Positions 1,927 to 27,446 of a stretch of DNA of 41,126 nucleotides are shown here, piece by piece (within the stretch, counting starts at the first letter, position 1; each line of letters starts with the position of its first letter). A program made the position numbers and the translations under genes. A model generated the notes under the pieces. That model searched no databases. It was not told where the DNA came from and saw only the letters and a program-made list of their open reading frames with translations. Origin of the DNA: Nitratidesulfovibrio liaohensis. Lineage in GTDB: Bacteria; Desulfobacterota; Desulfovibrionia; Desulfovibrionales; Desulfovibrionaceae. The DNA lies in the NCBI RefSeq assembly GCF_011682075.1, contig NZ_VSMK01000550.1, positions 1 through 41,126 of the forward strand, in the 5' to 3' direction.

Positions 1927-3285
1927 GGTAGTGTCCAGAATTTTGCGCACTTTCAGTAGCCGCCAGTTGGCGCGGTGTTGTCTCTTCTTTTCACTCCTGC
2001 AACAGGCGCATATTGAGGTATCGTTCCGTGCCCCACTTCTGGCCTGACATGTAGCGCAATCGGGCCGCCACAAGCATGAGGGCGGCGTGACCATCCGGAA
2101 AACTGCCAACCACGCGGGTGCGGCGTCGGATTTCCCGGTTCAGGCGTTCCAGAGGGTTGTTCGTGCGGATATGGCGCCAATGTTCCGGAGGAAATCCGTA
2201 AAACGGCAGGGTTTCATCGCATCCGTCTTCCACGATCCGGGATGCCTTTTCAAGCCGCATGGTACGCAGTTTGTTTACGACTTCCGCGGTCTTTTGCCGT
2301 GCGGCCTCCTTGTCTTCCTGGGCATGGATGGCCTTGAGCATGCGCGCCACATCCTTGGCCTTGCCTCGTGGCACGGTGTGCAGCACGTTCCGGTAGAAAT
2401 GCACGATGCAACGTTGCCATTGCGCTTCGGGATAGAATTCGCCCAAAGCCTCCAGCAACCCAAGGCTTTTGTCGGACACCAACAAGCGGATCGTGGTGAG
2501 GCCGCGACTGCGCAAACCACGCAAAAATTGTCGCCAACTCTCGGCGTCCTCTCGTGCCCCTTCGGCCACGCCAAGAATTTCGCGATATCCGTCGGTCGTG
2601 ACGCCGATGGCCACGAGGACCGACACATTTTGAACCTCGCCACCCCATGAGCGCTTCAGCCAGATGCCGTCCACGAAGACATACGGGTATTCGCTAACCA
2701 GCGGGCGGTTGCGCCAGGCATCCACGCGCTCGAAAACCTTCTGGTTCAGATCGCTTATGGTGCTCGGGCTGACACGGCTGCCCCACAGAGCTTCCGTGAT
2801 GTCCTCGACCCGGCGCACGGAAACGCCTGCCAGATACATCTCCACCAGAGCCTCTTCCACGGAACTTTCACGGCGTCGATAACGCTCTATGATGGCGGTT
2901 TCAAACGGCACGTGGCGCAGCTTGGGCACCTTGAGACGGACGGTTCCAGCCGTGGTCTGGAGTTCGCGCTGATAGCTTCCCGACCGGGTGCTGGCCCGCT
3001 GCGCATTGCGTTCGTAGCGCCGGGCCTGACACAAGGCGTCGGCCTCAGCATCAAGAAGGCCGTTCAGGGTGTCCTCCACGCTCTGCCGGACAACCTCAGC
3101 CACATGCCCCCGCAATTCTGCCTCATCCACGGCGAGCACGGACAGTTTCTTTTTACCCTGCTCCTTGGTACTGCTCATCTCGTAGCCTTCCTTGGTGGTA
3201 TGGTGGTTGATTGGTCTTGACCAACCTTACCAACTTGGCGGGCTACTTCCATTTTTTGAATGTGCGAAAAATTCTGTACGTTATC
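1927..3285 (-). mobile_element. Complete IS256-family insertion sequence
   Basis: Ends 1927-1951 and 3261-3285 are imperfect inverted repeats (19 of 25 positions match, core CCAGAATTTT/ACAGAATTTT). They enclose a single full-length transposase and are flanked by an exact 8-bp direct repeat. The element looks complete and potentially active. It landed about 20 bp from an older IS481-type end at 3303-3342. Confidence 0.92.
1991..3178 (-). CDS. IS256-family (mutator-type) transposase
   Basis: A 395-residue DDE transposase of the Mutator/IS256 family, full length. Visible landmarks are the VDGIWLK segment with the first catalytic Asp, LLVSDKSLGL with the second Asp, the CIVHFYRNVL helix, and the C-terminal HIRTNNPLERLNREIRRRTRVVGSFP block that is diagnostic of the family and carries the catalytic Glu. 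No stop or frameshift interrupts it. The ATG at 3178 follows a purine-rich AAGGAAGG. It is the only gene in its IS. Confidence 0.95.
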   Translation of the reverse strand: MSSTKEQGKKKLSVLAVDEAELRGHVAEVVRQSVEDTLNGLLDAEADALCQARRYERNAQRASTRSGSYQRELQTTAGTVRLKVPKLRHVPFETAIIERYRRRESSVEEALVEMYLAGVSVRRVEDITEALWGSRVSPSTISDLNQKVFERVDAWRNRPLVSEYPYVFVDGIWLKRSWGGEVQNVSVLVAIGVTTDGYREILGVAEGAREDAESWRQFLRGLRSRGLTTIRLLVSDKSLGLLEALGEFYPEAQWQRCIVHFYRNVLHTVPRGKAKDVARMLKAIHAQEDKEAARQKTAEVVNKLRTMRLEKASRIVEDGCDETLPFYGFPPEHWRHIRTNNPLERLNREIRRRTRVVGSFPDGHAALMLVAARLRYMSGQKWGTERYLNMRLLQE

Positions 3286-5525: not shown

Positions 5526-6262
5526 TCAATTCTTGAGGGTTTCCCCACGGTTCAGGTTTTTTCCCTGCTGCCGACAAAAGTGTTCGGGCGTCATGTTGTT
5601 CAGGCTTGAATGTTGGCGAACGGAGTTGTGGTGCCGCCTCCATTCCTCGATCACTACGCACGCCTCGGCCCGACACCGGAACCATTCCATTGACAGGCAT
5701 TCGTCGCGAAATTTGCCGTTAAAACTCTCGTTCAAACCGTTCTACCAGGGCTTGCAAGGCTCAATCAGAGCCAGATTCAGAGACTCCCGAGCCGCCCATT
5801 TGAGCAGAGCCTTCGACAGGCGGGACAGCACCTCAATCACCCGGCCCGACCTGATGCTCCCGGCAACGTCTATGGCCAGGCATTCGCGAGTGTATTCGTC
5901 CACCACGGTCAGGCATTTGATCTGCAGACCATTTGCACAGGCGTCGTAGACAAAGTCGTACGCCCACAGTTCGTTTGCACCCATCGGCAGTTGTGGTCGC
6001 AGACGGGACGCTGCAATCCGCTTCCGAGGCCGCTTCCTGGGTACCTGTAACCCGGCCTTGCACCAAAGCCGGAACGCCTTGTCGGCACCCATGACATGAC
6101 CCAGACGCTCCATGAACACGTTGATCCGGCGATATCCAAAGCGCTGATACGTCGCAGCTAGACCTGACATCGCCGCCATCAGGGACTTGTCCCGAGCCTC
6201 CAGCCGTGACTCGCAGTGGAGCGACGACCGGGAAGTGGATGACAGCGCACACTCCTGCGTTG
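5526..6262 (-). pseudogene. IS3-family transposase OrfB, inactivated
   Basis: The DDE integrase-core part of an IS3 transposase. Blocks in order: RFGYRRINVFMERLG, the MGADKAFRLWCKAGLQVPRKR linker region, NELWAYDFVYD with the first catalytic Asp, and in the last part FNESFNGKFRDECLS with the Glu. Two lesions are clear. An in-frame TAG near 5742 replaces the Gln expected after EPCKPW. About 15 residues including the DNGPEF motif with the second catalytic Asp are missing between VLSRL and KALLKWA. The 5' end has no normal start. It cannot make an active enzyme. Confidence 0.85.
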
Positions 6263-6315
6263 TGAAAGTCCGCGACTCCTAGCGTATGCCACCTGGATGC
6301 GTCGGACGGGTGGGC

Positions 6316-6579
6316 CTACCATTTTTTTGCAGCGATTTCCTTCATGACCTCGATTTCAAGGTCCCGTTCCGCAAGTATCTTCTTCAGCCGCGTGTTCTCT
6401 TGTTCCAGCAAGCGTAGCCGCTTCACGTCATCGGCGGACATGCCTGCGAACCGCTGGCGCCACGCGTAGATCGTCTGCTCGCTGATTCCATGCTTCTTGG
6501 CCACCTGGGCCACTGGACTACGGTCAGCTTCTCGCAGAATGCCGACCATCTGCTCTTCGGAAAATCGTCCCTTTTTCAT
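6316..6579 (-). CDS. IS3-family OrfA (helix-turn-helix subunit)
   Basis: An 87-residue protein with the IS3 OrfA layout: KKGRFSEEQMVGILREA, an HTH around VAKKHGISEQTIYAWRQRFAG, and a leucine-rich coiled coil (LLEQENTRLKKILAERDLEIEVM) ending in AAKKW. It would supply DNA binding and multimerisation to the OrfAB transposase, but the OrfB half is dead. It is intact itself and could act only as a repressor. Confidence 0.9.
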   Translation of the reverse strand: MKKGRFSEEQMVGILREADRSPVAQVAKKHGISEQTIYAWRQRFAGMSADDVKRLRLLEQENTRLKKILAERDLEIEVMKEIAAKKW

Positions 6580-10635: not shown

Positions 10636-10689
10636 TATGATTATCCGTATATGAAAAAGTTAAAAGTATTGTAAACCTCCCCAAGTTAG

Positions 10690-11848
10690 TGCCATGCAAA
10701 AGTAGAGACTTCCTTGGGTGAATTTTTCATGAGGAACTCTGCCGGGGCAAATCGCCAAGAGATTCGTGGGGTCGCTCCTCGTTGTACTGCCGCAGCCAGT
10801 TCTCCGTAATTTCCTTCACTTCTGTAAGGGATTTGAACAGGTAGAAGTCCAGAACCTCTTCCCGATAGGTCTTGTTGAACCGCTCAATGTACGAATTCTG
10901 TGTGGGCTTGCCTGGCTGGATGAACTCCAATGCCACGCCGTCCTTCTCGGCCCAGTCGGCCAGCAGCACGGAAACCAACTCCGGCCCGTTATCCATTCTC
11001 AATTTGGCAGGCAGCCCGCGCCAAGCCACTATTCGGTCCAAAACCCGCAAGACTCTTGCCGCTGGCGAATTCGTATCAACTTCGATCGTCAAACACTCAC
11101 GGCTGAAGTCGTCCAGCACGTTGAAAGTCCTAAACCTTTGACCGCTAGCCAATGCGTCATGCATGAAGTCAATGGACCAGCAGACATTCGCGCATGGCGG
11201 AACCGCCAGTGGTTGCGGGTTTCGCGAGGGCAGGCGCTTCTTGCCTTTGCGCCGGAGGTTCATCTTTAAAAGACAATATACCCGGTAGACGCGTTTATGG
11301 TTCCAGCGAAAACCGTGTCGGCGCAATACCGCGAACAGCTTGCCGAAACCGTAACGAGGATACCTGTCGGCCAGTCCCAGGAGCGCTTCAATGATCGGCG
11401 AATCATCTCTCGGTTTGAGCTCATACCGGTACACTGTCCGGCTAAGCCCCAGCGCAGCGCATGACCGCCGCTCACTGAGGCCATGCTCGCTGTGCATGAA
11501 ATCCGCCAGATCGCGCTTCTCGGCTGGCCTCAAAGCTTTTTTTGCAATGACGTCCTTCAAGGCCTCGTTCTCGAGGCTGAGATTGGCGAACATGCGCTTG
11601 AGCTTGCTGTTCTCTTCTTCAAGCTCCTTGAGCCTGCGGATATCCGAAGCTTCCATGCCGCCGAACTTGGCCTTCCACTGGTAGTAGTTGGCTTGGCTCA
11701 CGCCGTTTTCACGGCAAATATCAACGACCTTGCGACCGCCTTCGGCTTCTTTCAAAATCCGAATGATTTGGCTTTCTGAAAATCGAGACTTCTTCCTCGT
11801 GCCCTCCGTGAGGCAATCTTGATCAGAAATCTCTATTTTTCAATGGAC
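10690..11848 (-). mobile_element. IS3-family insertion sequence
   Basis: Imperfect inverted repeats face inward at both ends (10690 onwards CCATGCAAAAGTAGAGACTT; from 11848 on the opposite strand CCATTGAAAAATAGAGATTT). They enclose one long transposase frame. Boundaries are approximate because no convincing target duplication was found. It separates the glycosyltransferase at 12.1 kb from the methyltransferase at 10.6 kb. Confidence 0.8.
10727..11755 (-). CDS. IS3-family transposase with OrfA and OrfB in one frame
   Basis: An HTH/coiled-coil OrfA part (GVSQANYYQWKAKFGGM, then a leucine-rich stretch) is joined in frame to the OrfB integrase core: SIDFMHDAL (first Asp), LRMDNGPELVS (second Asp), GKPTQNSYIERFNKTYREEVLD (Glu). 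The OrfA-OrfB join falls on an A7 run (about 11536-11542, minus strand) of the kind used for programmed frameshifting. The protein-like frame continues upstream of the TTG at 11755 (SESQIIRIL preceded by RKKSRF), to about 11800, where the codon in the usual start position is ACG; no ATG is available. Either start-codon loss or a non-standard start is implied. Catalytic residues are complete. Confidence 0.88.
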   Translation of the reverse strand: MKEAEGGRKVVDICRENGVSQANYYQWKAKFGGMEASDIRRLKELEEENSKLKRMFANLSLENEALKDVIAKKALRPAEKRDLADFMHSEHGLSERRSCAALGLSRTVYRYELKPRDDSPIIEALLGLADRYPRYGFGKLFAVLRRHGFRWNHKRVYRVYCLLKMNLRRKGKKRLPSRNPQPLAVPPCANVCWSIDFMHDALASGQRFRTFNVLDDFSRECLTIEVDTNSPAARVLRVLDRIVAWRGLPAKLRMDNGPELVSVLLADWAEKDGVALEFIQPGKPTQNSYIERFNKTYREEVLDFYLFKSLTEVKEITENWLRQYNEERPHESLGDLPRQSSS

Positions 11849-12071
11849 CTATTCTAGGGGAGGGCTACAATTTGTACTGGCAAAAAGGACATGAAAGCGA
11901 TGTGCATTTTTCATCGACCCGCGATACGCAACTTTGGCGTATCCAGAAAAGCGCTTGCCTATCACTAATGGATGCCCACCAGATGTGCAATGTGTTGGGG
12001 TGCCCATAACGAATGGATTTCTCACGGGCAGCCGCGTTGATTTTGTCCAGCAGGAGGCAACTTCGATAAGT
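11849..12071. other. Gap between IS and glycosyltransferase, no gene supported
   Basis: A minus-strand open frame covers it but overlaps the end of the glycosyltransferase and shows no domain. It may hold decayed 3' sequence of a gene lost when the IS arrived. Confidence 0.4.
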
Positions 12072-15387: not shown

Positions 15388-16221
15388 TTATTTCCAAAAC
15401 TTCACGAGCCGCCAGAGCTTGCGTTGCACCCGAATAATAGGCTTATTGAGCACCAGCTGTGCATCAGCAAAAGCTGCCTGTGTAGTGGCAAGCTCGGCTT
15501 GGGTGGCGGCAAGCTCGGCTTGGGTAATGTTTAATACAGAAGTCACACGGTCGAGTTCAATTTCTGAAGGAAGAGGGCGTCGAATATTGATAATATTTTC
15601 AGCTTTTGGCTGTAACTTGTGTGTGAACGTTTTAATGGCAAACATGGCTCCGTATGGTTGATCCAGTTTTCGCTGACGAAAATCATAACTATGGAAATCC
15701 TCGCAAATATGAAAATCCCATGTCTCACCAAAATCTTCAGGAAGCCATCCCGAAAGGTGATCCTGATATGACACACCACTAAGCCCCCATCCGTCTGTTT
15801 CTCCCGCTTCTGCATGCTGGGGCATAAATCCTAGTGGCGTAAAGACAATGACTTGTTTTCGAGCAATACGCTCCAAGTGGCGCAATACATCAAAACCGTC
15901 ATGCTTTTCAAAGTGTTCAATAACATCAAGAAGAAATACCGTATCCACAGAATTATCACTAAAGCATTTCAGCGTCTCTTGTGCTTTTCCGCATAAAACA
16001 AGAATGCTTTTATCGTCTTTATGGCGCTCAAGCAAAATATCTGAATATTCTTTATATGGCTCAAGCATAATGTGCAGTGCTGGCCGAAAATAATTCATTG
16101 GCACAATACCACATCCAACATCAAGAACAACATCCGTATGCTCAATATGTGCTGCAACTTCGCCCCAAAAAGAATCAACAGAATACCATTTAATCTTTTT
16201 ATTTAACACAACTGCCTCCAT
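15388..16221 (-). CDS. SAM-dependent methyltransferase with C-terminal coiled coil
   Basis: A class I methyltransferase: TDVVLDVGCGIVPMN (SAM motif I), VDTVFLLDVIEHFEKHDG (motif II/III region) and VIVFTPLGFMPQ. After the catalytic domain come three heptad-like repeats (TQAELAA, TQAELAT, TQAAFAD) predicting a coiled coil, then a basic tail. In ABC-exported O-antigens, methyl groups or coiled-coil terminators (WbdD-like logic) can cap the chain and set its length, so a capping role is plausible but unproven. The start is ATG 16221 or, better spaced from GGAGG, GTG 16209; both overlap the end of wzt. A longer frame from 16281 lies inside wzt and is not needed. Confidence 0.8.
   Translation of the reverse strand: MEAVVLNKKIKWYSVDSFWGEVAAHIEHTDVVLDVGCGIVPMNYFRPALHIMLEPYKEYSDILLERHKDDKSILVLCGKAQETLKCFSDNSVDTVFLLDVIEHFEKHDGFDVLRHLERIARKQVIVFTPLGFMPQHAEAGETDGWGLSGVSYQDHLSGWLPEDFGETWDFHICEDFHSYDFRQRKLDQPYGAMFAIKTFTHKLQPKAENIINIRRPLPSEIELDRVTSVLNITQAELAATQAELATTQAAFADAQLVLNKPIIRVQRKLWRLVKFWK
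15484..15525. repeat. 21-bp tandem repeat inside the methyltransferase
   Basis: GGCAAGCTCGGCTTGGGT recurs with a 21-bp period, encoding the TQAELAx heptads. Unit changes would keep the frame and alter coiled-coil length. Confidence 0.75.
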
Positions 16222-17536
16222 ATAATAAACTCCGAGTACACTTTGCAGCCACAATGGTTCCATCATTTTCAGATGAAACAAAATTCAAAACAAATGCGTC
16301 ATGAATCCAATGTAGTTGCCGATGCATCTTTAACGTACCTTCAGCAATGGCTAAAGTGACGACATATTCCGACGTTAGCAGATCTGGAAATGAAAACTCC
16401 ATAACTGCTGCGTATATTTTATTTGCGTCACACGCCCAGCTTTTTACAGTCCGGTACGAATTAGTACCAAAAATACTATTTCCCATTCTGTCTTTTAGAA
16501 TAAATCCAGTTATAACATTGCTCAACTGTTTGCGTGTCCTAAACACTATGGTCAATCGACATACATCACCACATGTGAATATAACAGTATCTTTTGTCGT
16601 ATTTTCAACAATACAGCGCATGATTTCTGCGTCGCCATCGCCGAAGTTATCTTTATCAGAGAAATCAGACTCCGTTAAAAGAGAGACTTCATGAATGTGT
16701 TCTTTTGCACGTATCCCTGCATCAGTCTCTCCCTGTACTTCCTGAAATGCATCAGCTTGGACTTCCTTGGCTACTTCTTCGCGGATTGCATTTTCATCAG
16801 CAAAATTTGACGAGTAGCTTGAAGCCATATAGTGTTCGCAAACTTCTCTTGCCGGGCCAAACTCTTTTACACGCCCATGCTCCAACCAAAGAACATTGGT
16901 GCATAGCTGCATGACCGATGCGGTGTCGTGACTCACAAAAAGTACAGTTCCCTGCTCCCTGTATCCATGCATCTTCCGCAAGCATTTTTGTTGAAAAAAA
17001 ACATCACCAACTGCCAATGCTTCGTCTACGATCAGAATATCCGGTGTATGCGAGACATTCATCCCAAATGCAAGGCGTGCGAACATACCACTGGAGTAAG
17101 TCTTCACTGGCTGATTTATAAAGTCTCCGATTTCAGCAAAGGCCTCAATATCACGCACTATCTGTTCGTTGCGTGCGTCATCAAAGCCCAGAAGCGATGT
17201 GAGAAAGCGGACATTTTCCCGACCTGACATTTCAGGGTTAAAGCCTGCACTCAATTCCAACAGAGCTGCAACACGACCTGTTACCGAAACAGAGCCACTA
17301 GAAGGAGACAGTACACCTGTAAGAATCTGCAATAGAGTTGATTTTCCGGCACCGTTGACGCCAATAATGCCCAAGTGCTCCCCCTTGCGTACGCTGAAAG
17401 AAACATCTGCCAGAGCGTGAAAGAGGGTGTGTCTGGACCTGAAAGGCCAAATGGCCTCTTTGAGCCGGTCAGACGGATTTGTGTATAGACGATAACTTTT
17501 TGTCAGGTGTTGGACAGAAATGATAGTTTCACTCAT
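16199..17536 (-). CDS. wzt: O-antigen/polysaccharide ABC exporter ATPase Wzt
   Basis: 445 residues. The N-terminal ATPase domain has Walker A GVNGAGKST (59-67), the degenerate ABC signature YSSGMFARLAFG (about 150) and Walker B ILIVDEALAVGD (about 170), followed by the switch His in LFVSHD. The C-terminal half (about 250-445) is a beta-rich domain like the Wzt carbohydrate-binding domain, which recognises the finished chain end. It powers export of lipid-linked polysaccharide through Wzm. The ATG at 17536 overlaps the wzm stop by one base (TAATG). The extended C-terminus suggests terminus-dependent export, matching the adjacent methyltransferase. Confidence 0.93.
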   Translation of the reverse strand: MSETIISVQHLTKSYRLYTNPSDRLKEAIWPFRSRHTLFHALADVSFSVRKGEHLGIIGVNGAGKSTLLQILTGVLSPSSGSVSVTGRVAALLELSAGFNPEMSGRENVRFLTSLLGFDDARNEQIVRDIEAFAEIGDFINQPVKTYSSGMFARLAFGMNVSHTPDILIVDEALAVGDVFFQQKCLRKMHGYREQGTVLFVSHDTASVMQLCTNVLWLEHGRVKEFGPAREVCEHYMASSYSSNFADENAIREEVAKEVQADAFQEVQGETDAGIRAKEHIHEVSLLTESDFSDKDNFGDGDAEIMRCIVENTTKDTVIFTCGDVCRLTIVFRTRKQLSNVITGFILKDRMGNSIFGTNSYRTVKSWACDANKIYAAVMEFSFPDLLTSEYVVTLAIAEGTLKMHRQLHWIHDAFVLNFVSSENDGTIVAAKCTRSLLYGGSCVK

Positions 17537-18312
17537 TACAGCACATCCGCAAAATGTGGTCTTGTTCTCTTGTACAGCAAAACACTAACTCTACTCATTA
17601 GCATGGCAAAGAGCCAAAAAATAGAAGTTTCGAGCGGGCGCTCCCAAAAGAATATACCGCCAAACAACGAATCACGATATCCTTGCAATATATAGTTGAA
17701 TGGACTCAAAAGCAGCCAGCGAAACTTGGTCTCGGCAATCAAGGCAGGATTCCAAAATATGGGAGTGGCCCAGAACAACAGTTGTAAAATTACACCAACT
17801 ATATTCATGACATCCCGCACAAATACCATCAATGTAGCAGTGAGAAGGGCTATTGAAGTGCATAAGATACAAGCACAAAACAAATAATACACAAGTTGCA
17901 ACCAAGTCCTAGGATCTCCCTCGCCACCCACAAGCAGCGTGACCAGAAAAAAACACATAAGCAACAAATGCACAGGCAAGGCCGAAAATACCTTGGCAAT
18001 GGGCAAGGTCCATACAGGGAAAACGACCTTGGTAACAAGGTAGCTGCTTTCCAAAATTGAATTACATCCAAGGCTGATTGCTTCGCTGATAAAAAACCAT
18101 GCCAGCATGGCAGGGACAAACCAATTGAGGAATGAAACATTTCCCATCATGCCTGTTTTCAAGCCAAAGGCAAAAACGAAATAAATGAGTGCAATCGTAG
18201 TAAGGGGCGACAGAATCGCCCATATGCCACCAAGGAGCGTGCCAAGAGTTCTTTTTTTCAAGTCCATCAAAGCTTGGCGGAGAATGACTTTCAATGTTTT
18301 TTTGTTTAACAT
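17536..18312 (-). CDS. wzm: Polysaccharide ABC exporter permease Wzm
   Basis: About 258 residues of the ABC-2 permease type with six predicted membrane segments. The N-terminal cytoplasmic helix carries RQALMDLKKRTLGTLLGGIWAILSPL, typical of Wzm/KpsM/RfbA proteins. It forms the inner-membrane channel for the polysaccharide with Wzt. I prefer the ATG at 18312 (MLNKKTLKV); a TTG at 18330 overlapping the stop of the upstream gene is the alternative. It is directly coupled to wzt. Confidence 0.92.
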   Translation of the reverse strand: MLNKKTLKVILRQALMDLKKRTLGTLLGGIWAILSPLTTIALIYFVFAFGLKTGMMGNVSFLNWFVPAMLAWFFISEAISLGCNSILESSYLVTKVVFPVWTLPIAKVFSALPVHLLLMCFFLVTLLVGGEGDPRTWLQLVYYLFCACILCTSIALLTATLMVFVRDVMNIVGVILQLLFWATPIFWNPALIAETKFRWLLLSPFNYILQGYRDSLFGGIFFWERPLETSIFWLFAMLMSRVSVLLYKRTRPHFADVL

Positions 18313-18326
18313 GTGTTTATTGTTTC

Positions 18327-20588
18327 TCAAAATTTCGTGATTATTTTTTTTATTGTTTGCCTAACCCCATGAGACTTGTAGTGCGCTACAATTTTATGAG
18401 CAGAATCAATGGACTTATCTAGCACCCCTTTAACCCCATCTGCATCATAATAAGTTTTGAGCTTTGCATATACATTTTCTATTCTGCTTTTCTTTGTGCA
18501 ACGGCAATTTACACTTGCAGCATTTAAAACTTCGGGCTGTACCCTCGCATCTGATCCGAATTGATAAATCTGATCCATTAGATGCATTTTTTCTTCAGAT
18601 TGTTCGAACTGAGCAATCACCTCCTCGTAAACACCTATAATTCGCTTGATATATATATCTTTATTGTATTCCTTTGTCGCAAACTCTAAAGAACGCATAC
18701 TTCTTTCACGCAGCTCATCCTTGTTGCTACAAATCCTTTGCAGTTCATCAGCATACTTTTCTTCTGTGGTTGTTATGCCGCAAAACGGAGCATTTATAAC
18801 ATCATGCAGTGACGTGCCACCAAGTGCCAAAACCATTTTCCCACAACTCATGGCTTCAATAGCCATCAATCCAAAAGCTTCTTGTTCAGAGGGCATAAGA
18901 AAGATATCCGATGCCTGATAAAGCTTTGCCAGCAAGCCATCATCCTGCAACCAACCAAACTCTTTATGTATAAAATGACTCGGCAAGTCGTGAAGCAGGC
19001 CATTTTCTCCTACAGTCAGCAACACCACTTCGCCGCTTAGCTGTAATCGATTCAACGCGTTCTGCAATATATGAAGCCCCTTAAAATGACGCTGGGTGCG
19101 CGCAAAGATGACGAAGGCCGAAGGCGAAATTTTCAATTCATCACAAGCTATATTTTTTTCACAAGGCTTAAAAATACCCTGGTCAATACCAAATGGAATC
19201 AAAGAGACTTCTTTGCCACGCCAAATGGGAGATTCTTCCACCTTGGCCTGCATCCACTTTGAAGCCACAATTGCTCTGATGTTTGCGTTTGAAAGCGCCG
19301 TCTTTTTTATAGCAAACTCGAAAGCGGTTGAGTCTTCGTTGATGGAAAAAGGAACATCAAGGTATCTACAGGTACCGCAATGACTTTTCCATTTTATGCA
19401 GTCATGGTGATAAATGCAGCGACCTCCCAAGCTCCATGGGTCATGAAGTGTCCATACTACGGGCTTGTATTTTGATAAGAATGGTAAATGTTGAATATCA
19501 AACTTTGTATTATGAATAAGGTGCAAATGTAAAATGTCTGATTCAGCAAATTGCTTTGTAAAAAAAACACTTTTAAGCAAAGAGTTGCTAGATGTATTAT
19601 CAAATTGATATGTTATATTGCTTGACGATTGCTTGTTTGCTACAAAGTGACTAGTCTTTATACCATTTTCATTCAAATAAATGCTCAAATCATGACCATT
19701 GAATTTATTACCTGTTAAGTCAGTATCACCTAACTGCATACAGGTTAGCTTCTCATCCTTTATTATTTTTCTGTCTGAAAGTTTAATTTTTAATTTTTTT
19801 TTATCTGAGAGTGATAAATTTGAATTGTCCAAAAGTTCATTATAATATGCATTTAACCGCTTTCTGACTTTTGACTTGACCGCTGCCACTTCGGGAGCAA
19901 GCGTGGACTGTGAAAAATACTTTTGGAACCAATCTTCACACTCTGGAATAGCAAGATGTCTCGCTGCCGAGATTTGCCCAGGATGCATGCGCCATGTGGC
20001 AAGCACTTGTGGCACATGCAGGAAATCTCCTTGCAACGCAAGGTTCCAGTACATTTCCACATCGTTTATATGCTTATACCCCTTTCTCTTAATGTTTTTT
20101 AGATGCGAAAGTGCGGATCGCCGTAATACTGTCCCAGGACACGCAGCTTCACAGCTAAATTCGGATAGATTTCGCAAAAAATCCCATGCACGTCCCTTTG
20201 TAGTTTGCGTGATCTCTCCATTTTCATTAATAAAATCAAAGTCTGGATAGGCAAGAATTTTACTGGGGTTATCGTCAAGAACTTTTAACATTGTTTCCAG
20301 AAAATTTGGATATACTGGGTCATCAGAATTTATCTGAGTAAAATATTCGCCCTGAGCAAGTTCCCATCCTCTATTCGCGGTTTCAGCCTCACCTCTGTTC
20401 TCATGATAGTAATATCTTACTCTACTATCCGATAAATAAGGCTTAATCACCTGAGAAGTGGCATCGGTTGAACCATCATCAATGATGAAATATTCAAAAT
20501 CCGTGAATGTTTGTGCTAATACGGATTCAATCGTTTCTGGCAAAAGTGATGCTCTATTATAAGTCGGAGTAATAATTGTAAATTTCAT
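18327..20588 (-). CDS. GT2-GT4 fusion glycosyltransferase
   Basis: 753 residues with two catalytic domains. Residues 1-about 270 form a GT2 (GT-A) enzyme: FTIITPTYNRASLLPETIES, IDDGSTDATS, QINSDDPVYP (acidic pair) and a HINDVEMYWNLALQGDF segment near the usual catalytic base. Residues about 280-640 form a GT4 (GT-B) enzyme: ILHLHLIHNTKF, HDPWSLGGRC with a Cys cluster (YHHDCIKWKSHCGTC), LIPFGIDQGIF, and the donor-site PSEQEAFGLMAIEAMSCGK. The last 100 residues are helical and unassigned. The fusion should add two different sugars in order. Its ATG lies about 30 nt after the original stop of the interrupted acyltransferase gene. Confidence 0.87.
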   Translation of the reverse strand: MKFTIITPTYNRASLLPETIESVLAQTFTDFEYFIIDDGSTDATSQVIKPYLSDSRVRYYYHENRGEAETANRGWELAQGEYFTQINSDDPVYPNFLETMLKVLDDNPSKILAYPDFDFINENGEITQTTKGRAWDFLRNLSEFSCEAACPGTVLRRSALSHLKNIKRKGYKHINDVEMYWNLALQGDFLHVPQVLATWRMHPGQISAARHLAIPECEDWFQKYFSQSTLAPEVAAVKSKVRKRLNAYYNELLDNSNLSLSDKKKLKIKLSDRKIIKDEKLTCMQLGDTDLTGNKFNGHDLSIYLNENGIKTSHFVANKQSSSNITYQFDNTSSNSLLKSVFFTKQFAESDILHLHLIHNTKFDIQHLPFLSKYKPVVWTLHDPWSLGGRCIYHHDCIKWKSHCGTCRYLDVPFSINEDSTAFEFAIKKTALSNANIRAIVASKWMQAKVEESPIWRGKEVSLIPFGIDQGIFKPCEKNIACDELKISPSAFVIFARTQRHFKGLHILQNALNRLQLSGEVVLLTVGENGLLHDLPSHFIHKEFGWLQDDGLLAKLYQASDIFLMPSEQEAFGLMAIEAMSCGKMVLALGGTSLHDVINAPFCGITTTEEKYADELQRICSNKDELRERSMRSLEFATKEYNKDIYIKRIIGVYEEVIAQFEQSEEKMHLMDQIYQFGSDARVQPEVLNAASVNCRCTKKSRIENVYAKLKTYYDADGVKGVLDKSIDSAHKIVAHYKSHGVRQTIKKIITKF

Positions 20589-20617: not shown

Positions 20618-20683
20618 TTATCCGAGCAGCGCCGAAAGAATCTTGTTAACTTTTGGAAGGCGGGCAGTGACTTTAAGTGGAAT
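20618..20683 (-). pseudogene. Cut-off 3' end of the acyltransferase gene
   Basis: If the IS2-group element and one copy of its 5-bp target repeat are removed, the acyltransferase frame runs on through this segment as PLKVTARLPKVNKILSALLG and stops at TAA (20618-20620). It is now separated from the gene body by 1.3 kb. Confidence 0.85.
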
Positions 20684-20697
20684 TGGAGTTGCCCCTG

Positions 20698-21540
20698 CTA
20701 AACCGGACACCCTGCGGTTGCTGATGCGCGGATAAATTCTCTGGGGGATTTCATCCGCAAGCCCTTGTGAGGGTGCCTCTCGTTGTAGTCCTCGAACCAG
20801 CCGGGAAGCTGGGCCAGAACCGTTGCCGCATCAGGGCGGGCGTGTATATGCACGTAATCCCGCTTGAAGGTGTTCACAAAGGCTTCGGCCATGCCGTTGC
20901 TTTCCGGACTGCGCACCGGCGTGAAGCGCGGAAGCAGGCCTAGCAGTGTCGCAAACGCCACTGTTTCCCTGGCCGTGTAGCAGGAACCGTTGTCCGAGAG
21001 CCATTCGACGGGCTGTGGGGCCTTCACGGCCCCAAACCGCTTCTCCACGCACTCCAGCATCAAGTCCTGCACCATCTGGCCGCTGATGCCCGCCGTGGTC
21101 GCAATTGCCCCCATGGCCTCGCGGTCGCAGCAATCAAGGGCGAAGACTACCCTCACCACCTCGCCACTGTCGCAATGAATTTCAAACCCATCTGAACACC
21201 AGCGAAGATTACTTTTGAGGGTGATGACCTTGCCGTCGTGACTGCGGTCTGGCCGGTAGCCCTTGTGCCTGGCCAAAAGCAGGCCATGAAGGCGCATGAT
21301 CCGATACACGCGCTTGTGGTTGACGCGCGCATGACCATCTAGGACCAAGCGACGATTCAGCATCGCGCAGACCCGGCGGTAGCCGTAGGTCAGCCGATGG
21401 TCGATGATGTCGCGAATCAGGGGCAACAGCACCTCGTCCTCAGCCTTGGAGTAGTGGGGTGGACGTCCCCGAGCGGCCTCTTTCACCCGTTCGGCTAGTC
21501 TGGAGCGCGAGACCGTCAGCGCCTCGGCGACACGCTTCAT
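20698..21540 (-). CDS. IS2-group transposase OrfB
   Basis: 280 residues. HTH-like N-terminus, RLTYGYRRVCAMLNRR, WCSDGFEIHCDSGEVVRVVFALDCCDRE in place of the usual first-Asp block, EWLSDNGSCYTA with the second Asp, and SPESNGMAEAFVNTFKRDYV with the Glu. The N-terminus overlaps orfA by 4 nt in another frame, as expected for IS2-type elements, which join the products by frameshifting. No lesion is seen. Confidence 0.93.
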   Translation of the reverse strand: MKRVAEALTVSRSRLAERVKEAARGRPPHYSKAEDEVLLPLIRDIIDHRLTYGYRRVCAMLNRRLVLDGHARVNHKRVYRIMRLHGLLLARHKGYRPDRSHDGKVITLKSNLRWCSDGFEIHCDSGEVVRVVFALDCCDREAMGAIATTAGISGQMVQDLMLECVEKRFGAVKAPQPVEWLSDNGSCYTARETVAFATLLGLLPRFTPVRSPESNGMAEAFVNTFKRDYVHIHARPDAATVLAQLPGWFEDYNERHPHKGLRMKSPREFIRASATAGCPV

Positions 21541-21935
21541 CGGGAACCGTCCTCCCAGGGCAACGGAGTGCGCGAGATCAGTTTTTTTTCGCGCGCAATC
21601 TCCAACGCCTCCTGAAGGATTTCGACCTCCATGGTCTTCTTGCCCAGCATCCGCTCCAGATCGCGTATACGCTTCTTGAGCGCCCGAACTTCCCCGGCGC
21701 CGACGACCTGGTCATCCGCTTGGACAGCGGTCTTGCCTCCGTCGCTCATGAGCTTCCTCCAGCGAAACAACTGGCTGGGAGAGAGGCCGTTTCTGCGGGC
21801 GACGTACGAAACGTTCATCCCCGGTTGCAACGACTCCTGGACCAGTTGAACCTTCTCCGCCACCGTCCAACGTCGACGCTGGGCTGTGGTCAACACTTCC
21901 ACCACTGCTCCCCCGTTAGCACTAGGCTTGGACAT
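21537..21935 (-). CDS. IS2-group OrfA
   Basis: 132 residues: an HTH segment (MNVSYVARRNGLSPSQLFRWRK) followed by a heptad-rich region (VRALKKRIRDLERMLGKKTM) and EILQEALEIAREKK. It provides end-binding and represses the IS promoter; fused to OrfB it forms the active transposase. The ATG at 21935 opens the element. Confidence 0.92.
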   Translation of the reverse strand: MSKPSANGGAVVEVLTTAQRRRWTVAEKVQLVQESLQPGMNVSYVARRNGLSPSQLFRWRKLMSDGGKTAVQADDQVVGAGEVRALKKRIRDLERMLGKKTMEVEILQEALEIAREKKLISRTPLPWEDGSR

Positions 21936-21975
21936 AGGGCTAGACCTATCTCCTATCGTTGGCGGGGTGTCCGGT

Positions 21976-22935
21976 TCAAATGGGGGCTACTCCAGGAATA
22001 TATATGCACACTGCGCTGGCACACAAGGCTGAAAAGCAAATCGCAACCCCAGAAACAAGAGTATTGAGTGAACCATGCAGCCCGTACAATTGCTCTAAAA
22101 ATAAAGGGTGGATGAAAAATATCCCATAACTATGCTGACTTAAGAACATTTTCATTCTATGAGCACTTTGTGAATTTAAAACAGAAAAAACCTGAAAGTG
22201 TTTTAGCATTACAAATGCTAATATACTCATCACAACTACGTTAAAATGAAGATATGAAAAATAAGTTTCATCGAACACTTGTTTTTTTAGCGAAAGGTAT
22301 ATTGTCATTGCATATGTAAAAACAACAACACATACGTATGCCACAAAAAGATTCTTTACAGGAAATGTTGCTGTGATGGTATTTTTTCTCAAAAAATACC
22401 CTGCAACAGGGTATCCCATATACAAGAAGTAGGGATTATTGCTAAAAATTGTAACTTGAGGAAAAAAATTACTCAGAAGGACACATAGAAACCAAAGGCA
22501 GATAAAATAAACCAGCAACGATGGTGATTGTTCCATTGCAACAACACATTGCCTAAATAATGGATACAGCAAATATATTGTGATTATAATACCAACAAAT
22601 GCAAAGTGATAGCATATTGACATCGGATTCGACAATGAAGCGTTGGCATTCCAATAAAAATAAGCATAAAAGCAATACGGAACAAAAAGTCGTAATAGTA
22701 CTTTATCGATAAAAAAAGTTTTGAGCGAATAGTCCTTCGCAAGCATTACTGCGCCACTTGCCATCAAAAAAAGTGGGACTGCAGGACGAACCATAGAGTC
22801 GTAAAAAACAGCAACAGACCAATCAAAAGTTGTAATGCTTAATTGTTGATAACATAAAACTGAATAACTATGTAGAAATACGACCATCACTGTAGCTAAA
22901 GCTTTCACGTCATCTAAAAATTCTATTCGTTGCAT
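21976..22935 (-). CDS. Acyltransferase-3 family membrane protein, C-terminus replaced by IS sequence
   Basis: An OafA/WbdX-type acyltransferase with about ten membrane segments that would O-acetylate (or otherwise acylate) the glycan. The family N-terminus RIEFLDDVKALATVMVVFLHS is visible, as is PAVPLFLMASGAVML. The start ATG is 22935, preceded by AGGAG; a longer frame reaches 22974 without support. The IS2-group element inserted near the end: residues after CIYIP now read GVAPI from IS DNA. Rebuilding across the IS gives a protein of about 333 residues instead of 319. Only the last 19 or so residues are lost, so partial activity cannot be excluded. Confidence 0.88.
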   Translation of the reverse strand: MQRIEFLDDVKALATVMVVFLHSYSVLCYQQLSITTFDWSVAVFYDSMVRPAVPLFLMASGAVMLAKDYSLKTFFIDKVLLRLFVPYCFYAYFYWNANASLSNPMSICYHFAFVGIIITIYLLYPLFRQCVVAMEQSPSLLVYFICLWFLCVLLSNFFPQVTIFSNNPYFLYMGYPVAGYFLRKNTITATFPVKNLFVAYVCVVVFTYAMTIYLSLKKQVFDETYFSYLHFNVVVMSILAFVMLKHFQVFSVLNSQSAHRMKMFLSQHSYGIFFIHPLFLEQLYGLHGSLNTLVSGVAICFSALCASAVCIYIPGVAPI

Positions 22936-23051
22936 AACGTTGCTCCTGATGCAAGCCAAAGTAAACATTGACATATTAAAATATATACAACTGTTTCAAT
23001 GGCAATTAGAGGTAACCACAACTTTAGCTTCACGCTCATTTACAGTGAACT

Positions 23052-23097
23052 TGAGATTACTTGGAGCGCTACAAATTAAACGCTCCAAGTAATCTCA
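23052..23097. terminator. Long perfect hairpin upstream of the acyltransferase gene
   Basis: Arms 23052-23068 (TGAGATTACTTGGAGCG) and 23081-23097 are exact reverse complements over 17 bp with a 12-nt AT-rich loop. There is no U-tract on either strand. It adjoins the IS481-type element, whose 7-bp target repeat overlaps its outer edge. A terminator, RNA-processing site or IS target are all possible. Confidence 0.5.
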
Positions 23098-23100
23098 GTA

Positions 23101-24252
23101 TGTACAGAGATAGTATTCAGCTGACACTTGCCGTACCCGGCTGGGGCGCTGATCAGGCTGCGTAGTGTCCTTCGTTATCTTCTTTCGGCTGCCCTTCGGG
23201 ACGGCTATCAAGGAAGGCTTGATAGGGTGTCCGACCGTTCATGTTTCTGCCTTGGTGCGCACGCTCGTGGTTGTAGTGGTGCAGATAAGCGTTCAGGTCT
23301 GCCTGCATTTCGTCCAAGGACTCGTACCAGTTTCTGCGCCCCTGAATCCTGAAATGCTCGTCGAGCAATGTCCTGTGCAGCCGCTCCACAAAGCCGTTGC
23401 TTTGCGGACGTCTGACGCGGGTTGTCCGATGCTCGATATTTTCCAGTTGCAGGAATAGCTCGTAGGGGTGCCTGTCAGGACGCCTGCAGAATTCCCGGCC
23501 ATTATCCGAAAGCACTGTGCCGACCGGCGTGTCGTGCTCCTCGAAAAAGGGCAGCACAGACTCGTTGAGCATGTGTACCGCCGTAACTAGATTTTCCCCA
23601 CGCCCTTCAGCGTGCCTACGAAAAACGTATCCACGGCCACCAGATCGCCGCTGCACCGGGTTTCGATATGGCGCTCCCGGAATTCCGGGCTGAATCGCTC
23701 CAAGGTGCGAACCTGGTCGTCATTCCGGGCGATTCCGGTATCTCGCACATGCCGCTCCAGGCGCAGTAGCCGTTCATGTCGGGTCAGCATCCCGTTGCGG
23801 CTCCAGACGCCCCGCACGCCCCCGGAACTGACCTGAACACCTTGCAAAACCAACTGTTGGCCACGCGGACAGGGCCATGCGTCGGGAATTCAAGGCTGTA
23901 CGCCAGAATCCTTTCCGACGTCGCCTCGTCCACCCGGTTCGGGTGCGGTTCTCGTGGCCCCGGCAGGCGGTCCACAGGCCCTTCTGCGCCAAACGTATGG
24001 TAATTGCAACGGATTTCATAAAACTGCTGCCGCGAATATCCCATGATGCGGCACGCCTTGCTCACGTTGTCGAGTTCGCTTGCAAGCTCTAGCAGGCTCA
24101 ACTTCCTTCGTGCTACCTTCTTGCCTGTGGTCATGTCGGACTCCTTGCTGGTGGTTGATGAAGTTTCGCAACCTCATCGCTACCCCAGTCGGGAACGGCA
24201 TGACCACTTCCTTTTGAAGGGCCAACTGTCAGGTAATAACTAGCTCAGCACA
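23101..24252 (-). mobile_element. Decayed IS481-type insertion sequence, copy A
   Basis: The ends TGTACAGAGATAGT (23101) and TGTGCTGAGCTAGT (opposite strand from 24252) are inverted repeats, followed inward by CTGACA...TTGCC-like blocks. CTCAGTA is repeated at 23094-23100 and 24253-24259, a 7-bp target duplication. The transposase inside is broken by frameshifts. Confidence 0.85.
23153..24134 (-). pseudogene. IS481-type transposase, copy A, frameshifted and internally deleted
   Basis: From the ATG at 24134: an HTH part (KLSLLELASELDNVSKACRI, SRQQFYEIR) in one frame, then VLQGVQVSSGGVRGVWSR to VAVDTFFVGTLKGVGKI (first catalytic Asp) in a second, then TAVHMLNESVLPFFEEHDTP, LSDNGREF (second Asp) and SNGFVERLHRTLLDEHF (Glu) in a third. 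By comparison with copy B at 40.4 kb, 67 bp are missing after GVGKI, which causes the last shift. It cannot encode a full enzyme. Confidence 0.88.
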
Positions 24253-24416
24253 CTCAGTAGGCCATCGGCCTTAATTAAAATAACTAGCTTTTCTGTGGAC
24301 TCTTTGGCGCAACTCGCCTTAGCGTGGCAAAACAACTGTCTATTTCTATGACTTGCAATTCGCTACCGGATAAGCAACGGGGTAGCATTGACACACTATA
24401 CATCACATAAATGTGC
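24253..24416. other. Short gap without a gene
   Basis: About 160 nt between the IS and the epimerase stop. It contains a small palindrome (GGCCATCGGCC, 24260-24270) and no supported frame. Confidence 0.4.
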
Positions 24417-25496
24417 TCAACGCCGATACCCCAACAACAAGTTCCCCACAACCTTACTGACCTGCGTTTCGTCGTATTCGGCAGGCACGCTCCATTCCCC
24501 TTCACGGCCAAGCACCAAGGCAAGGCAGCGCAGGATTTCCTCACGACCGCAACCGCTGAGTATGTTTGAGCCACACTCCAAGGTTTCTGGTCTTTCGGTT
24601 ACATCGCGCAAGGTTACAGTGGGACGTCGCATGATGCAGCCTTCTTCCTGCACCGTGCCACTGTCTGAAAGCAGGGCTTTCGCATGTTTTTCAAGGTGCA
24701 CAAAGTCGAAGAAGCCCGGCGGATCGATGAAGCGCACCGCCTCACTGACCTTATAATTGCCATCCGCAAGGCGTGACCGCGTTCGAGGATGGAGTGAAAG
24801 CAGTGTTGGAATGCCATAGCGTTCGCTCATGGCACCAAAGGCGTCCATGAATGAGTGAAGGCGTTCGGCCATGTCCACGTTTTCCGCCCGGTGCAGTGTC
24901 ACCAGAAAATACCCTTGAGAGGTAACGCCAAGACGTGAAAGCACATCACTGGCATCAATCTGTGGCGCGTAATGCTCCATCACTTCCCTGATGGGGTTGC
25001 CTGTCACATACACACGATTGGGGTGGAAGCCTTCACGCAACAGATGATCTCGGCTGCGGTTTGTGTAGGGCAGCAGAATATCCGAGGAGTGGTCAATCAC
25101 ACGACGGTTGACTTCTTCAGGTACGCGATCGTCATAGCAGCGATTGCCAGCTTCCATGTGATACACAGGGATACCGCGACGCTTGGCGCATTGGGCAGTC
25201 AAGGCCGAGTTGGTGTCGCCAAGCACCAGAAAGCGATCTGGACATTCCTTGGCGAGTATGGCGTCGGTTTGAGCAAGAATGTTGCCAATCTGCGCCCATG
25301 TGCTGTCTGCCTTGGTGTCAAACCAATAATCTGGCTTGCGCACTTTCAACTGATCAAAAAACAGTGTTGAAAGATTGGCGTCATAGTTCTGCCCGGTGAA
25401 CACCAATACGTGTTCACAAAGTTCATCAAGCAGTGCAATGACACGCGACAGGCGTATGATTTCCGGACGAGTGCCCAGAACAGTCACTATCTTCAT
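24417..25496 (-). CDS. wecB: Non-hydrolysing UDP-N-acetylglucosamine 2-epimerase family enzyme
   Basis: 359 residues, GT-B-like fold. Family motifs: VTVLGTRPEIIRL at the N-terminus, LGDTNSAL, HMEAGNRCYDDRVPEEVNRRVIDH (catalytic acid/base and UDP contacts), LVTLHRAENVD and LLSDSGTVQEE. Beside a WbjB-type dehydratase and an RmlD-like reductase, it most likely acts as the last step (WbjD/WbvD/CapG role), epimerising C2 of a UDP-2-acetamido-2,6-dideoxy-L-hexose, and not UDP-GlcNAc itself. It overlaps the dehydratase gene by 4 nt. Confidence 0.9.
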   Translation of the reverse strand: MKIVTVLGTRPEIIRLSRVIALLDELCEHVLVFTGQNYDANLSTLFFDQLKVRKPDYWFDTKADSTWAQIGNILAQTDAILAKECPDRFLVLGDTNSALTAQCAKRRGIPVYHMEAGNRCYDDRVPEEVNRRVIDHSSDILLPYTNRSRDHLLREGFHPNRVYVTGNPIREVMEHYAPQIDASDVLSRLGVTSQGYFLVTLHRAENVDMAERLHSFMDAFGAMSERYGIPTLLSLHPRTRSRLADGNYKVSEAVRFIDPPGFFDFVHLEKHAKALLSDSGTVQEEGCIMRRPTVTLRDVTERPETLECGSNILSGCGREEILRCLALVLGREGEWSVPAEYDETQVSKVVGNLLLGYRR

Positions 25497-26560
25497 GCCA
25501 GCAATTCCTCATCAACTTCAGTGCGCCCTTCTGAGTAGAGCAAATTATACTTGCGTAGCAGCTCTTCCGTCTCTGCGTAGGTCATGACACTGTCATTGGA
25601 GCCGTATGACTTGCCGCGTGGCGCGGTTTCTTCCTTGCGTTGTATCTCGGGCAGCATGGGGGCAATGGCATAGAAATCCCCACGATCATAGGCACGTACA
25701 CCCTCTTCGTAGGAAATCATCAGCTCATGAATCTTCTCGCCGGGACGAATGCCAATAACTTTCATGTCAATGGCTCTGTCACCGATAATGGCTTTGGCAA
25801 CGTCGGTAATGAGTGCCGCAGGAATTTTTGGTATATATGTTTCACCAGGATAGGCATTTTTAACGGCGGTGGCGATGGTTGTTACTGCATAGGACAAGGG
25901 CAGGAGGAAGCGGGTCATGTCCGTGGTAGTAATGGTAACAGGGCCGCCTGATGCTATCTGCTCGTAAAACAAGGGAATCACAGAACCACGCGAGGCCAGC
26001 ACATTTCCGTAACGGGCGCAGATGAAACGCGTATCCGGGCAAGAAATATTGCCCGCAATGAACATGCGTTCCTGCAAGGCTTTGGTCATGCCCATGGCAT
26101 TGACGGGCAAGCAGGCCTTATCCGTGGTCACGCCCACCACCGTCTCAACGGGCAGACGATTTTCTTCAATGGCACGCACAATATTGGCAGCGCCCGTGAT
26201 GTTTGTCTGGCAGGCTTCATTAACAAAGTATTCGCAAGAAGGTACTTGCTTCAACGCAGCCGCGTTAATGATAATGTCTACATCATGCAAAGCCCCGCAA
26301 AGGGAAGCATAGTTTCGCACATCACCGATGCGGAACGTCAGCAAGCGACGAAAGTTATCATAAATAATTTCATCAGTAGGATTCTTCACCGTGGAATAGG
26401 CCACGCGCATAAAGTGCTGTTTGGCTTCATCACGCGAAAAAACAATTATTTTTCGGGGCAATCCATAGGTTCCTGACAGCAACTGACGTGTGAGAGTTTT
26501 GCCCAATGAACCTGTTCCACCAGTGATAAAGATTGACTTGTCCTTAAACACATTTTGCAT
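25493..26560 (-). CDS. wbjB: UDP-N-acetylglucosamine 4,6-dehydratase/5-epimerase (WbjB/CapE type)
   Basis: 355-residue extended short-chain dehydrogenase. NAD(P) motif ITGGTGSLGKTLT at residue about 12, RIGDVRNYASL, and the active-site region GVTTDKACLPVNAMGMTKALQE, where Met replaces the usual Tyr of YxxxK and Asp-Lys precede it, as in the WbjB/CapE/FnlA group. It starts conversion of UDP-GlcNAc to L-configured 6-deoxy amino sugars. It overlaps the epimerase gene downstream and follows the reductase gene by 13 nt. Confidence 0.92.
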   Translation of the reverse strand: MQNVFKDKSIFITGGTGSLGKTLTRQLLSGTYGLPRKIIVFSRDEAKQHFMRVAYSTVKNPTDEIIYDNFRRLLTFRIGDVRNYASLCGALHDVDIIINAAALKQVPSCEYFVNEACQTNITGAANIVRAIEENRLPVETVVGVTTDKACLPVNAMGMTKALQERMFIAGNISCPDTRFICARYGNVLASRGSVIPLFYEQIASGGPVTITTTDMTRFLLPLSYAVTTIATAVKNAYPGETYIPKIPAALITDVAKAIIGDRAIDMKVIGIRPGEKIHELMISYEEGVRAYDRGDFYAIAPMLPEIQRKEETAPRGKSYGSNDSVMTYAETEELLRKYNLLYSEGRTEVDEELLA

Positions 26561-26573
26561 TTTTGACTCCTAA

Positions 26574-27446
26574 TTATGCTTTTAAATTTTGAGTAGATAC
26601 ATACAAATGCGCTTCGCGCATGGCAGGTATCATCTCTTCCCACGATGGGGCTTGGTAGCCAGTGATGGTATGGAATGCTGCTCCAGAAAGACGTTTGTCT
26701 TCGACGACGGTATCGTCTTGAATTATATCAATTTTTTTTCTATAAACTGCGGCAATCAGGTGCAAAAGATCGTATTTTGAAATAGGTTCTCCCGAAACCT
26801 GATACAGCCCATGAATGCCGGGATTGGAAAGTATATGCTTTGCCAAAATGGTAGCATGTTCGTTGGTCGGAAGACCTGTATAAATGGCCTTTGTATATCC
26901 CTTGACGCTACCTTGCTGTGCCAGAAACCATTCCACAAGCGAATGTCTGCCACGCAGTTCTGGGCCGATGATGGATGTGCGGATGGTCAGCGCGCCCTCG
27001 CCTGCAATTTCACCTAAAAACTTGGTCAAACCATAAATGTCAGAAGCAGTAGGGCGATCCTGCTCCGTGTAAGGCCGTCCAAGCTTACCATCAAAAACAC
27101 AATCCGTACTATAATGTATGCAACGCATATTCCTTTTGCGGCATGCCTCCAAAAGCTTGTGGGGAAATTCTGCATTAATTTTGATGCAGCACAAAGGATC
27201 GCGACCTTCCGGAAGATGCCGTATAAGCCCAATGGCATTGATGACCACGTCAGGAGAAAGTGCGTCCAATGCCTGTAAAACACTCGAAAAGTCTGTGGCA
27301 TCAACCCCGGCAACTATACGTTGCAGAGGGGGAATCATTGATGAAGAACTACGAACGGTCCCGTATACATCAAAGCCCATTCTTTGCAGCTCATAAAATA
27401 ACATGTGGCCCAGCATTCCGGACGCGCCCAATATGCATATTTTCAC
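26574..27446 (-). CDS. RmlD-like NDP-sugar reductase
   Basis: 290 residues, dTDP-4-dehydrorhamnose-reductase family. ICILGASGMLGHML (cofactor), VINAIGLIRH, HYSTDCVFDGKLG and YGLTKFLGE (Tyr-x-x-x-Lys) are all present. It lacks the extra C-terminal cupin domain of WbjC/CapF (about 370 residues), so it matches the WbvR type, which reduces the 4-keto group to give the L-rhamno product that the neighbouring 2-epimerase turns into UDP-L-QuiNAc. The alternative, UDP-L-FucNAc, would normally need the larger enzyme. Confidence 0.85.
   Translation of the reverse strand: MKICILGASGMLGHMLFYELQRMGFDVYGTVRSSSSMIPPLQRIVAGVDATDFSSVLQALDALSPDVVINAIGLIRHLPEGRDPLCCIKINAEFPHKLLEACRKRNMRCIHYSTDCVFDGKLGRPYTEQDRPTASDIYGLTKFLGEIAGEGALTIRTSIIGPELRGRHSLVEWFLAQQGSVKGYTKAIYTGLPTNEHATILAKHILSNPGIHGLYQVSGEPISKYDLLHLIAAVYRKKIDIIQDDTVVEDKRLSGAAFHTITGYQAPSWEEMIPAMREAHLYVSTQNLKA

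Follow-up and report, generated by a model that had tools for sequence, protein, structure and literature searches.

Genes and features of the locus

The window, by which we mean the whole stretch of 41,126 nucleotides that was analyzed, is contig C443 of a draft assembly of Nitratidesulfovibrio liaohensis (4.24 Mb in 813 contigs, 86.84% complete). It contains an acyltransferase-3 gene whose 3' end is separated from the rest of the gene by an insertion sequence of the IS2 group (Table 1). On one side of the gene are sugar-nucleotide genes (24417-27446), of which the epimerase was assigned by Pfam and the other two by reading of the sequence; on the other are a glycosyltransferase and an ABC exporter (16199-20588). 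The acyltransferase probably decorates a surface sugar.

Table 1. Features of the interrupted acyltransferase gene, the inserted element and the downstream genes. Coordinates are positions in the window.
Feature	Coordinates	Strand	Basis
Acyltransferase-3 gene, remaining part	21995..22935	minus	PF01757; ATG at 22935, frame stays open into the insert and stops at 21976
Target-site repeat GGAAT, copy 1	21995..21999	none	sequence
IS2-group insertion sequence, 1311 bp	20684..21994	minus (transposase)	ends, protein identity to IS2, copies elsewhere
Left inverted repeat, upstream of orfA	21962..21994	minus	sequence
orfA, 132 aa, HTH transposase protein	21537..21935	minus	PF01527, E 3.6e-18; 51.7% to IS2 InsC
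A8 run (coding strand), probable -1 frameshift site for an orfAB fusion	21582..21589	minus	sequence, frame check
orfB, 280 aa, integrase-core transposase protein	20698..21540	minus	PF00665, PF13276; 51.1% to IS2 InsD over 278 columns
Right inverted repeat	20684..20715	minus	sequence
Target-site repeat GGAAT, copy 2	20679..20683	none	sequence
Detached 3' end of acyltransferase gene with original stop codon	20618..20678	minus	junction rebuild; C-terminal motif test
Two-domain glycosyltransferase gene	18327..20588	minus	PF00535 and PF00534; 53% homologue in genome G158
Wzm-like ABC glycan exporter gene	17536-18330	minus	PF01061/PF00005/PF14524 for the exporter pair
Wzt-like ABC glycan exporter gene	16199-17536	minus	PF01061/PF00005/PF14524 for the exporter pair

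The insertion site and the rebuilt reading frame

The first-pass annotation had read this region as an acyltransferase gene cut by an IS2-group element that GGAAT flanks exactly, and both statements held. The interrupted protein matches PF01757 (Acyl_transf_3) over residues 5-310 with an E-value of 2.6e-17 (63.3 bits against a cut-off of 31), the transposase proteins are about 51% identical to InsC and InsD of IS2, and a copy of GGAAT abuts each end of the insert. The present product is 319 amino acids long and consists of 314 native residues followed by GVAPI, which is encoded by the insert; the 319-codon frame is otherwise unbroken.

When the insert and one GGAAT were removed, the frame ran open through LKVTARLPKVNKILSALLG to a stop codon whose lowest base is 20618. 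Between this stop and the ATG at 20588, where the glycosyltransferase gene starts, there are 29 nt, as had been claimed. The lost tail is basic and, as also claimed, has 19 residues; the string of 20 letters that had been quoted for it is one too long, its first P still being present in the broken product.

Classification and copies of the element

The insert ends in TGGAGT...ACTCCA, with imperfect inverted repeats, and both of its transposase frames are intact. The orfB frame is -1 relative to orfA and is open across the A8 run, where a -1 frameshift may produce an OrfAB fusion. Three reference elements (IS2, IS3 and IS150) were compared with it, besides fragments from the window. Identities to the IS3 proteins were 29.6% (InsE) and 21.3% (InsF), and those to the IS150 proteins 20.7% (InsJ) and 21.9% (InsK). 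With about 51% identity of its proteins to InsC and InsD and only 20.7-29.6% to the IS3 and IS150 counterparts, the element is, on protein identity, a member of the IS2 group of the IS3 family. As a rule, elements of this group duplicate 5 bp of their target. A 5-bp duplication, GGAAT, was found here, and the ends of the insert are IS2-like when compared by eye.

The IS2A copy of Escherichia coli MG1655 resembles the window element in its orfA plus orfB layout, in its length (1331 versus 1311 bp) and in its ends (TGGA[G/T]TTGCCCC at one end), but the two are different species of element. That copy (L048, 1845-3873) is annotated inside yaiX, a fragment of a 'putative acyltransferase', beside the putative glucosyltransferase gene yaiP; the parallel is probably coincidental.

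Seven full-length copies of the element or a close relative were read at both ends, and exact 5-bp repeats were present at five of them (GGAAT, GGACG, TGATG, TCCAG and GAGGG). The copies were those in the window, in contig C68 of the same genome, in the genomes G006 and G003, in a Desulfovibrionaceae metagenome-assembled genome (MAG; L084), in a Humidesulfovibrio MAG (L085) and on a plasmid of Nitratidesulfovibrio vulgaris (67% identical); those of G006 and L085 lacked an exact repeat. For relatives, reading of ends was tried at six of 80 loci, and four gave no end pair to the pattern used. By orfB, the closest named relatives were in the Desulfovibrionaceae MAG (89%) and the Humidesulfovibrio MAG (86%).

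Six of the eight genus genomes, among them its own, contain at least part of the element, three of them as partial matches only, and the element is apparently resident in the genus. Of the 1311 sites, 23 distinguish the window copy from that of G006, which is another species, but 63 distinguish it from the second full copy of the source genome. Since the own-genome copy is the more diverged, the two resident copies appear to have arrived separately or to be an old pair, as far as site differences can tell. In genome G005, ten matches of 117-119 bp each (L011, L014, L016, L019-L024 and one without a locus) all lie at contig ends; a multi-copy element seems to have broken up this assembly. A literature search for the IS2 group and IS3 family in Desulfovibrio found nothing.

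Comparison of the rebuilt C-terminus with homologues

Homologue C-termini unlike the rebuilt tail had been named in the first-pass annotation as evidence that would speak against the reconstruction. The comparison was run on 23 rows and did not overturn the reconstruction. In most of the 23 homologues a C-terminal motif follows a few residues past the last helix: Pro in 18/23, K/R two places before it in 17/23, and R/N/K three places after it in 23/23. For this set, five of the 23 initial translations were dropped and five others added (from Azospirillum, Aureibacter, Priestia and a Vibrio phage, and E. coli WecH). The dropped rows, left out of both tests described below, were three fragments (L027, L046 and L047), L041, with 86 residues only, and L043, which starts inside the domain. 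The end of L041 carries the motif; that of L043 does not and counts against the tail reading.

Against the whole-family profile, the read-through protein scored 148.7 bits, the protein as it stands in the window 147.1 and the native part alone 146.5. Shuffled tails averaged 147.7 bits with a maximum of 153.1, and 68 of 500 scored at least as high as the true tail; the two wrong frames gave 146.8 and 150.0, one of them above the true tail. This profile therefore failed to tell the true tail from shuffled ones. A 12-column motif profile, made as a block from the homologues only and run after the whole-profile result, gave the rebuilt tail 12.9 bits, a score that is post hoc and block-dependent. 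Shuffles averaged -1.6 bits with this profile and were as good in 20 of 20,000 cases, the wrong frames scored -12.4 and 4.3, and the next best place in the 333-residue rebuilt protein scored 2.9. The homologues' own scores were 14.3-26.0, not leave-one-out. By the motif test, there is moderate support for the rebuilt tail as the native C-terminus of the acyltransferase.

Conserved residues and predicted structure of the acyltransferase

H22 in TM1 and H276 are each invariant in the alignment (23/23 homologues), and both are retained in the clipped product. Among the hallmarks of acyltransferase-3 (AT3) proteins are R-X10-H in TM1 and RxxR at TM3 (passages of PMC9833829). At the first of these positions the window protein has K11-X10-H22, where the 23 homologues have Lys (11), Arg (11) or Thr (1). 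At TM3, V79 stands in place of the first Arg of RxxR, the second being R82; the first Arg was present in 16/23 homologues as read from the printed alignment. In OacB mutants, replacement of either RxxR arginine abolished function (excerpts of PMC8952252). Because of these results and of V79 at the first of the two positions, it is uncertain whether the protein would have been active even before the insertion. Like OafB, Oac/OacB and WecH, the protein belongs to PF01757 and has the invariant TM1 histidine; it differs from them in the Lys of R-X10-H, in the Val at the first RxxR Arg and in having no SGNH domain.

The predicted structure of the 319-aa product had a mean pLDDT of 84.5 and a pTM of 0.87, with the last helix at residues 293-316 and pLDDT below 50 at residues 317-319 only. 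A sequence search for a solved relative returned none at E-values up to 1. The best match among solved folds, by Foldseek, was HGSNAT (probability 0.96, with a weak E-value of 0.19), a protein that has a related transmembrane acyltransferase fold (excerpts of PMC12423673).

Search for an uninterrupted relative

An uninterrupted homologue in related strains had been proposed as a check on the reading, and no close one was found in the collections searched. Neither an insert-free allele nor an empty site was seen in the genomes searched, which covered the genus, the order and a sample of the phylum. At the level of the order, 21 of 348 genomes matched, the source genome included, and the other matches listed were 24-31% identical. 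The phylum sample gave three of 395 genomes, again with the source genome, and the other two were 27% and 34% identical over partial stretches. Pattern searches for a close relative gave 24 matches in the genome contig collection and one in viral contigs, none of which was confirmed. Nine plasmid records and five phage records were only 21.3-26.4% and 22.5-27.2% identical to the acyltransferase, respectively.

Setting of the gene in the locus and the genome

The acyltransferase gene was matched in one of eight congeneric genomes, which was its own, and in none of the seven others, two of which are drafts (590 and 820 contigs; one of them is only 75% complete). GC content is 34% in 22001-23000, which is mostly acyltransferase, versus 61% in 21001-22000, which is mostly insert. 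The low GC and the missing match in the seven other congeners point to a foreign gene, probably horizontally acquired, that was struck by a resident element.

Thirteen window genes were compared with G158, a genome of the same family; six of them have homologues there (53-82% identity), and their order is conserved. In this collinear cluster (L064, 11331-13502) the acyltransferase and the two flanking insertion sequences are replaced by other genes, which by sequence reading encode a radical-SAM-like protein and a methyltransferase. Since other genes hold its place there, the acyltransferase slot of the glycan locus looks variable.

Several other repeats and mobile elements were observed in the window. 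Just upstream of the acyltransferase gene, at 23052-23097, is a perfect inverted repeat whose 17-bp arms enclose a 12-nt loop. Folded as RNA this hairpin gave -32.9 kcal/mol (z -7.36, 0/200 shuffles as good), and it is followed by no T run. A search with its inner 12-nt arms as an exact pattern matched one of the eight genus genomes, at this place only. Adjoining the hairpin is a second, decayed insertion sequence (23101-24255) with integrase-core fragments and AGTA on both sides, which, judged against copies in G001 and at other places of the source genome, appears about 67 bp short near 23588. A further insertion sequence of the same locus, at 10668-11871, is bounded by 18-nt end repeats and contains a transposase-like frame that is open over 342 aa, and at least two more transposase regions were recognized by reading (1991-3178 and 5742-6579).

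Discussion

The account that we favor, and hold to be very probable as a whole, is that an IS2-group element entered the last codons of a probably acquired acyltransferase-3 gene. An apparently genus-resident element of the IS3 family inserted in the acyltransferase gene of a surface-glycan locus served by an ABC exporter, presumably by ordinary transposition, and duplicated the 5 bp GGAAT. Translation now gives the 314 native residues and GVAPI, and the basic tail of 19 residues, located where the last predicted helix ends, is lost. The insertion with its limits, the truncation and the family of both partners are established. The junction is not a chance arrangement, since exact 5-bp repeats occur at five of the seven full-length copies and the tail carries the family motif. 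The source is an 813-contig draft in which the element has another full copy, so that contig pieces might have been joined wrongly at the repeat; we regard such an assembly artefact as extremely unlikely, because the target-site repeat is exact, the frame continues into a family-like tail, and two copies that differ at 63 of 1311 sites are easily distinguished. It is also very unlikely that precise excision makes the insertion a reversible on/off switch, as the first-pass annotation had suggested. The perfect 5-bp repeats and a joining that would restore the frame are in favor of a switch, and enhancer-aided excision of IS3-family members is documented in E. coli, but precise or simple excision is rare in bacterial cells according to excerpts of the same source (PMC9397093), and the genomes searched held no insert-free variant.

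The effect of the insertion on the enzyme and its neighbors is less certain. Because the predicted model keeps the last helix (293-316) and the core, the cut at residue 314 would remove the tail and not the domain. Loss of acylation from such a truncation is plausible in the light of the model, and we consider it somewhat probable that loss of the tail weakens or abolishes acylation. The glycan is a putative antigen and the acyl group a putative acetyl group. We give less credence to the clipped enzyme being fully active, with the insertion tolerated as a mere exchange of the cytosolic tail for five residues. That would fit the retention of the membrane domain in the prediction, the survival of the invariant histidines, and the position of the insertion at the extreme 3' end of a frame that is otherwise intact, but most of the 23 homologues share the tail motif although they belong to several phyla, and this suggests that the motif is important. 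The main effect might instead lie downstream, with the genes for the glycosyltransferase and the ABC exporter expressed less through polarity or more through read-through from the transposase promoter. Insert and operon are co-directional, and orfB ends 14 nt from the edge of the insert, with 109 nt between it and the following start codon; nevertheless, scans that detect consensus sites only found no promoter-like match on the same strand at the exit of the insert and no terminator-like match within it, and we think a mainly downstream effect unlikely. It is improbable that the event was a tail swap rather than a knock-out, leaving a working enzyme and downstream genes transcribed from the transposase region. 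If it was, a single event would retune glycan decoration and export together.

An insertion sequence in the acyltransferase gene of a surface sugar is an already known kind of event, of which the window provides a new example. IS1301 is not known to belong to the IS2 group. It disrupts meningococcal cssF (oatWY) (excerpts of PMC3647402), and an IS4-family element disrupts Salmonella oafA, in a study whose analysed isolates with mutated oafA were devoid of acetylation (excerpts of PMC9426603). In both, as in the window, an insertion sequence breaks a surface-glycan O-acyltransferase gene. The oafA case differs in the family of its element; the window gene loses its last 19 residues only, and is known from sequence. 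Excerpts of an AT3 review (PMC9558356) make no mention of insertion sequences, truncation, the C-terminus or disruption, and a literature search for a Desulfovibrio insertion sequence in an O-antigen acyltransferase led only to a paper on iron deficiency in Bacteroidetes.

The locus offers a clean example of an insertion sequence, common in its genus, that reshapes a foreign-looking surface-sugar locus. It also cautions against equating insertion with loss of function, since what is missing is no more than the tail where the last predicted membrane helix ends. These points would be relevant chiefly to the reading of strain differences in glycan acylation within this group of bacteria, phage receptors being one example.
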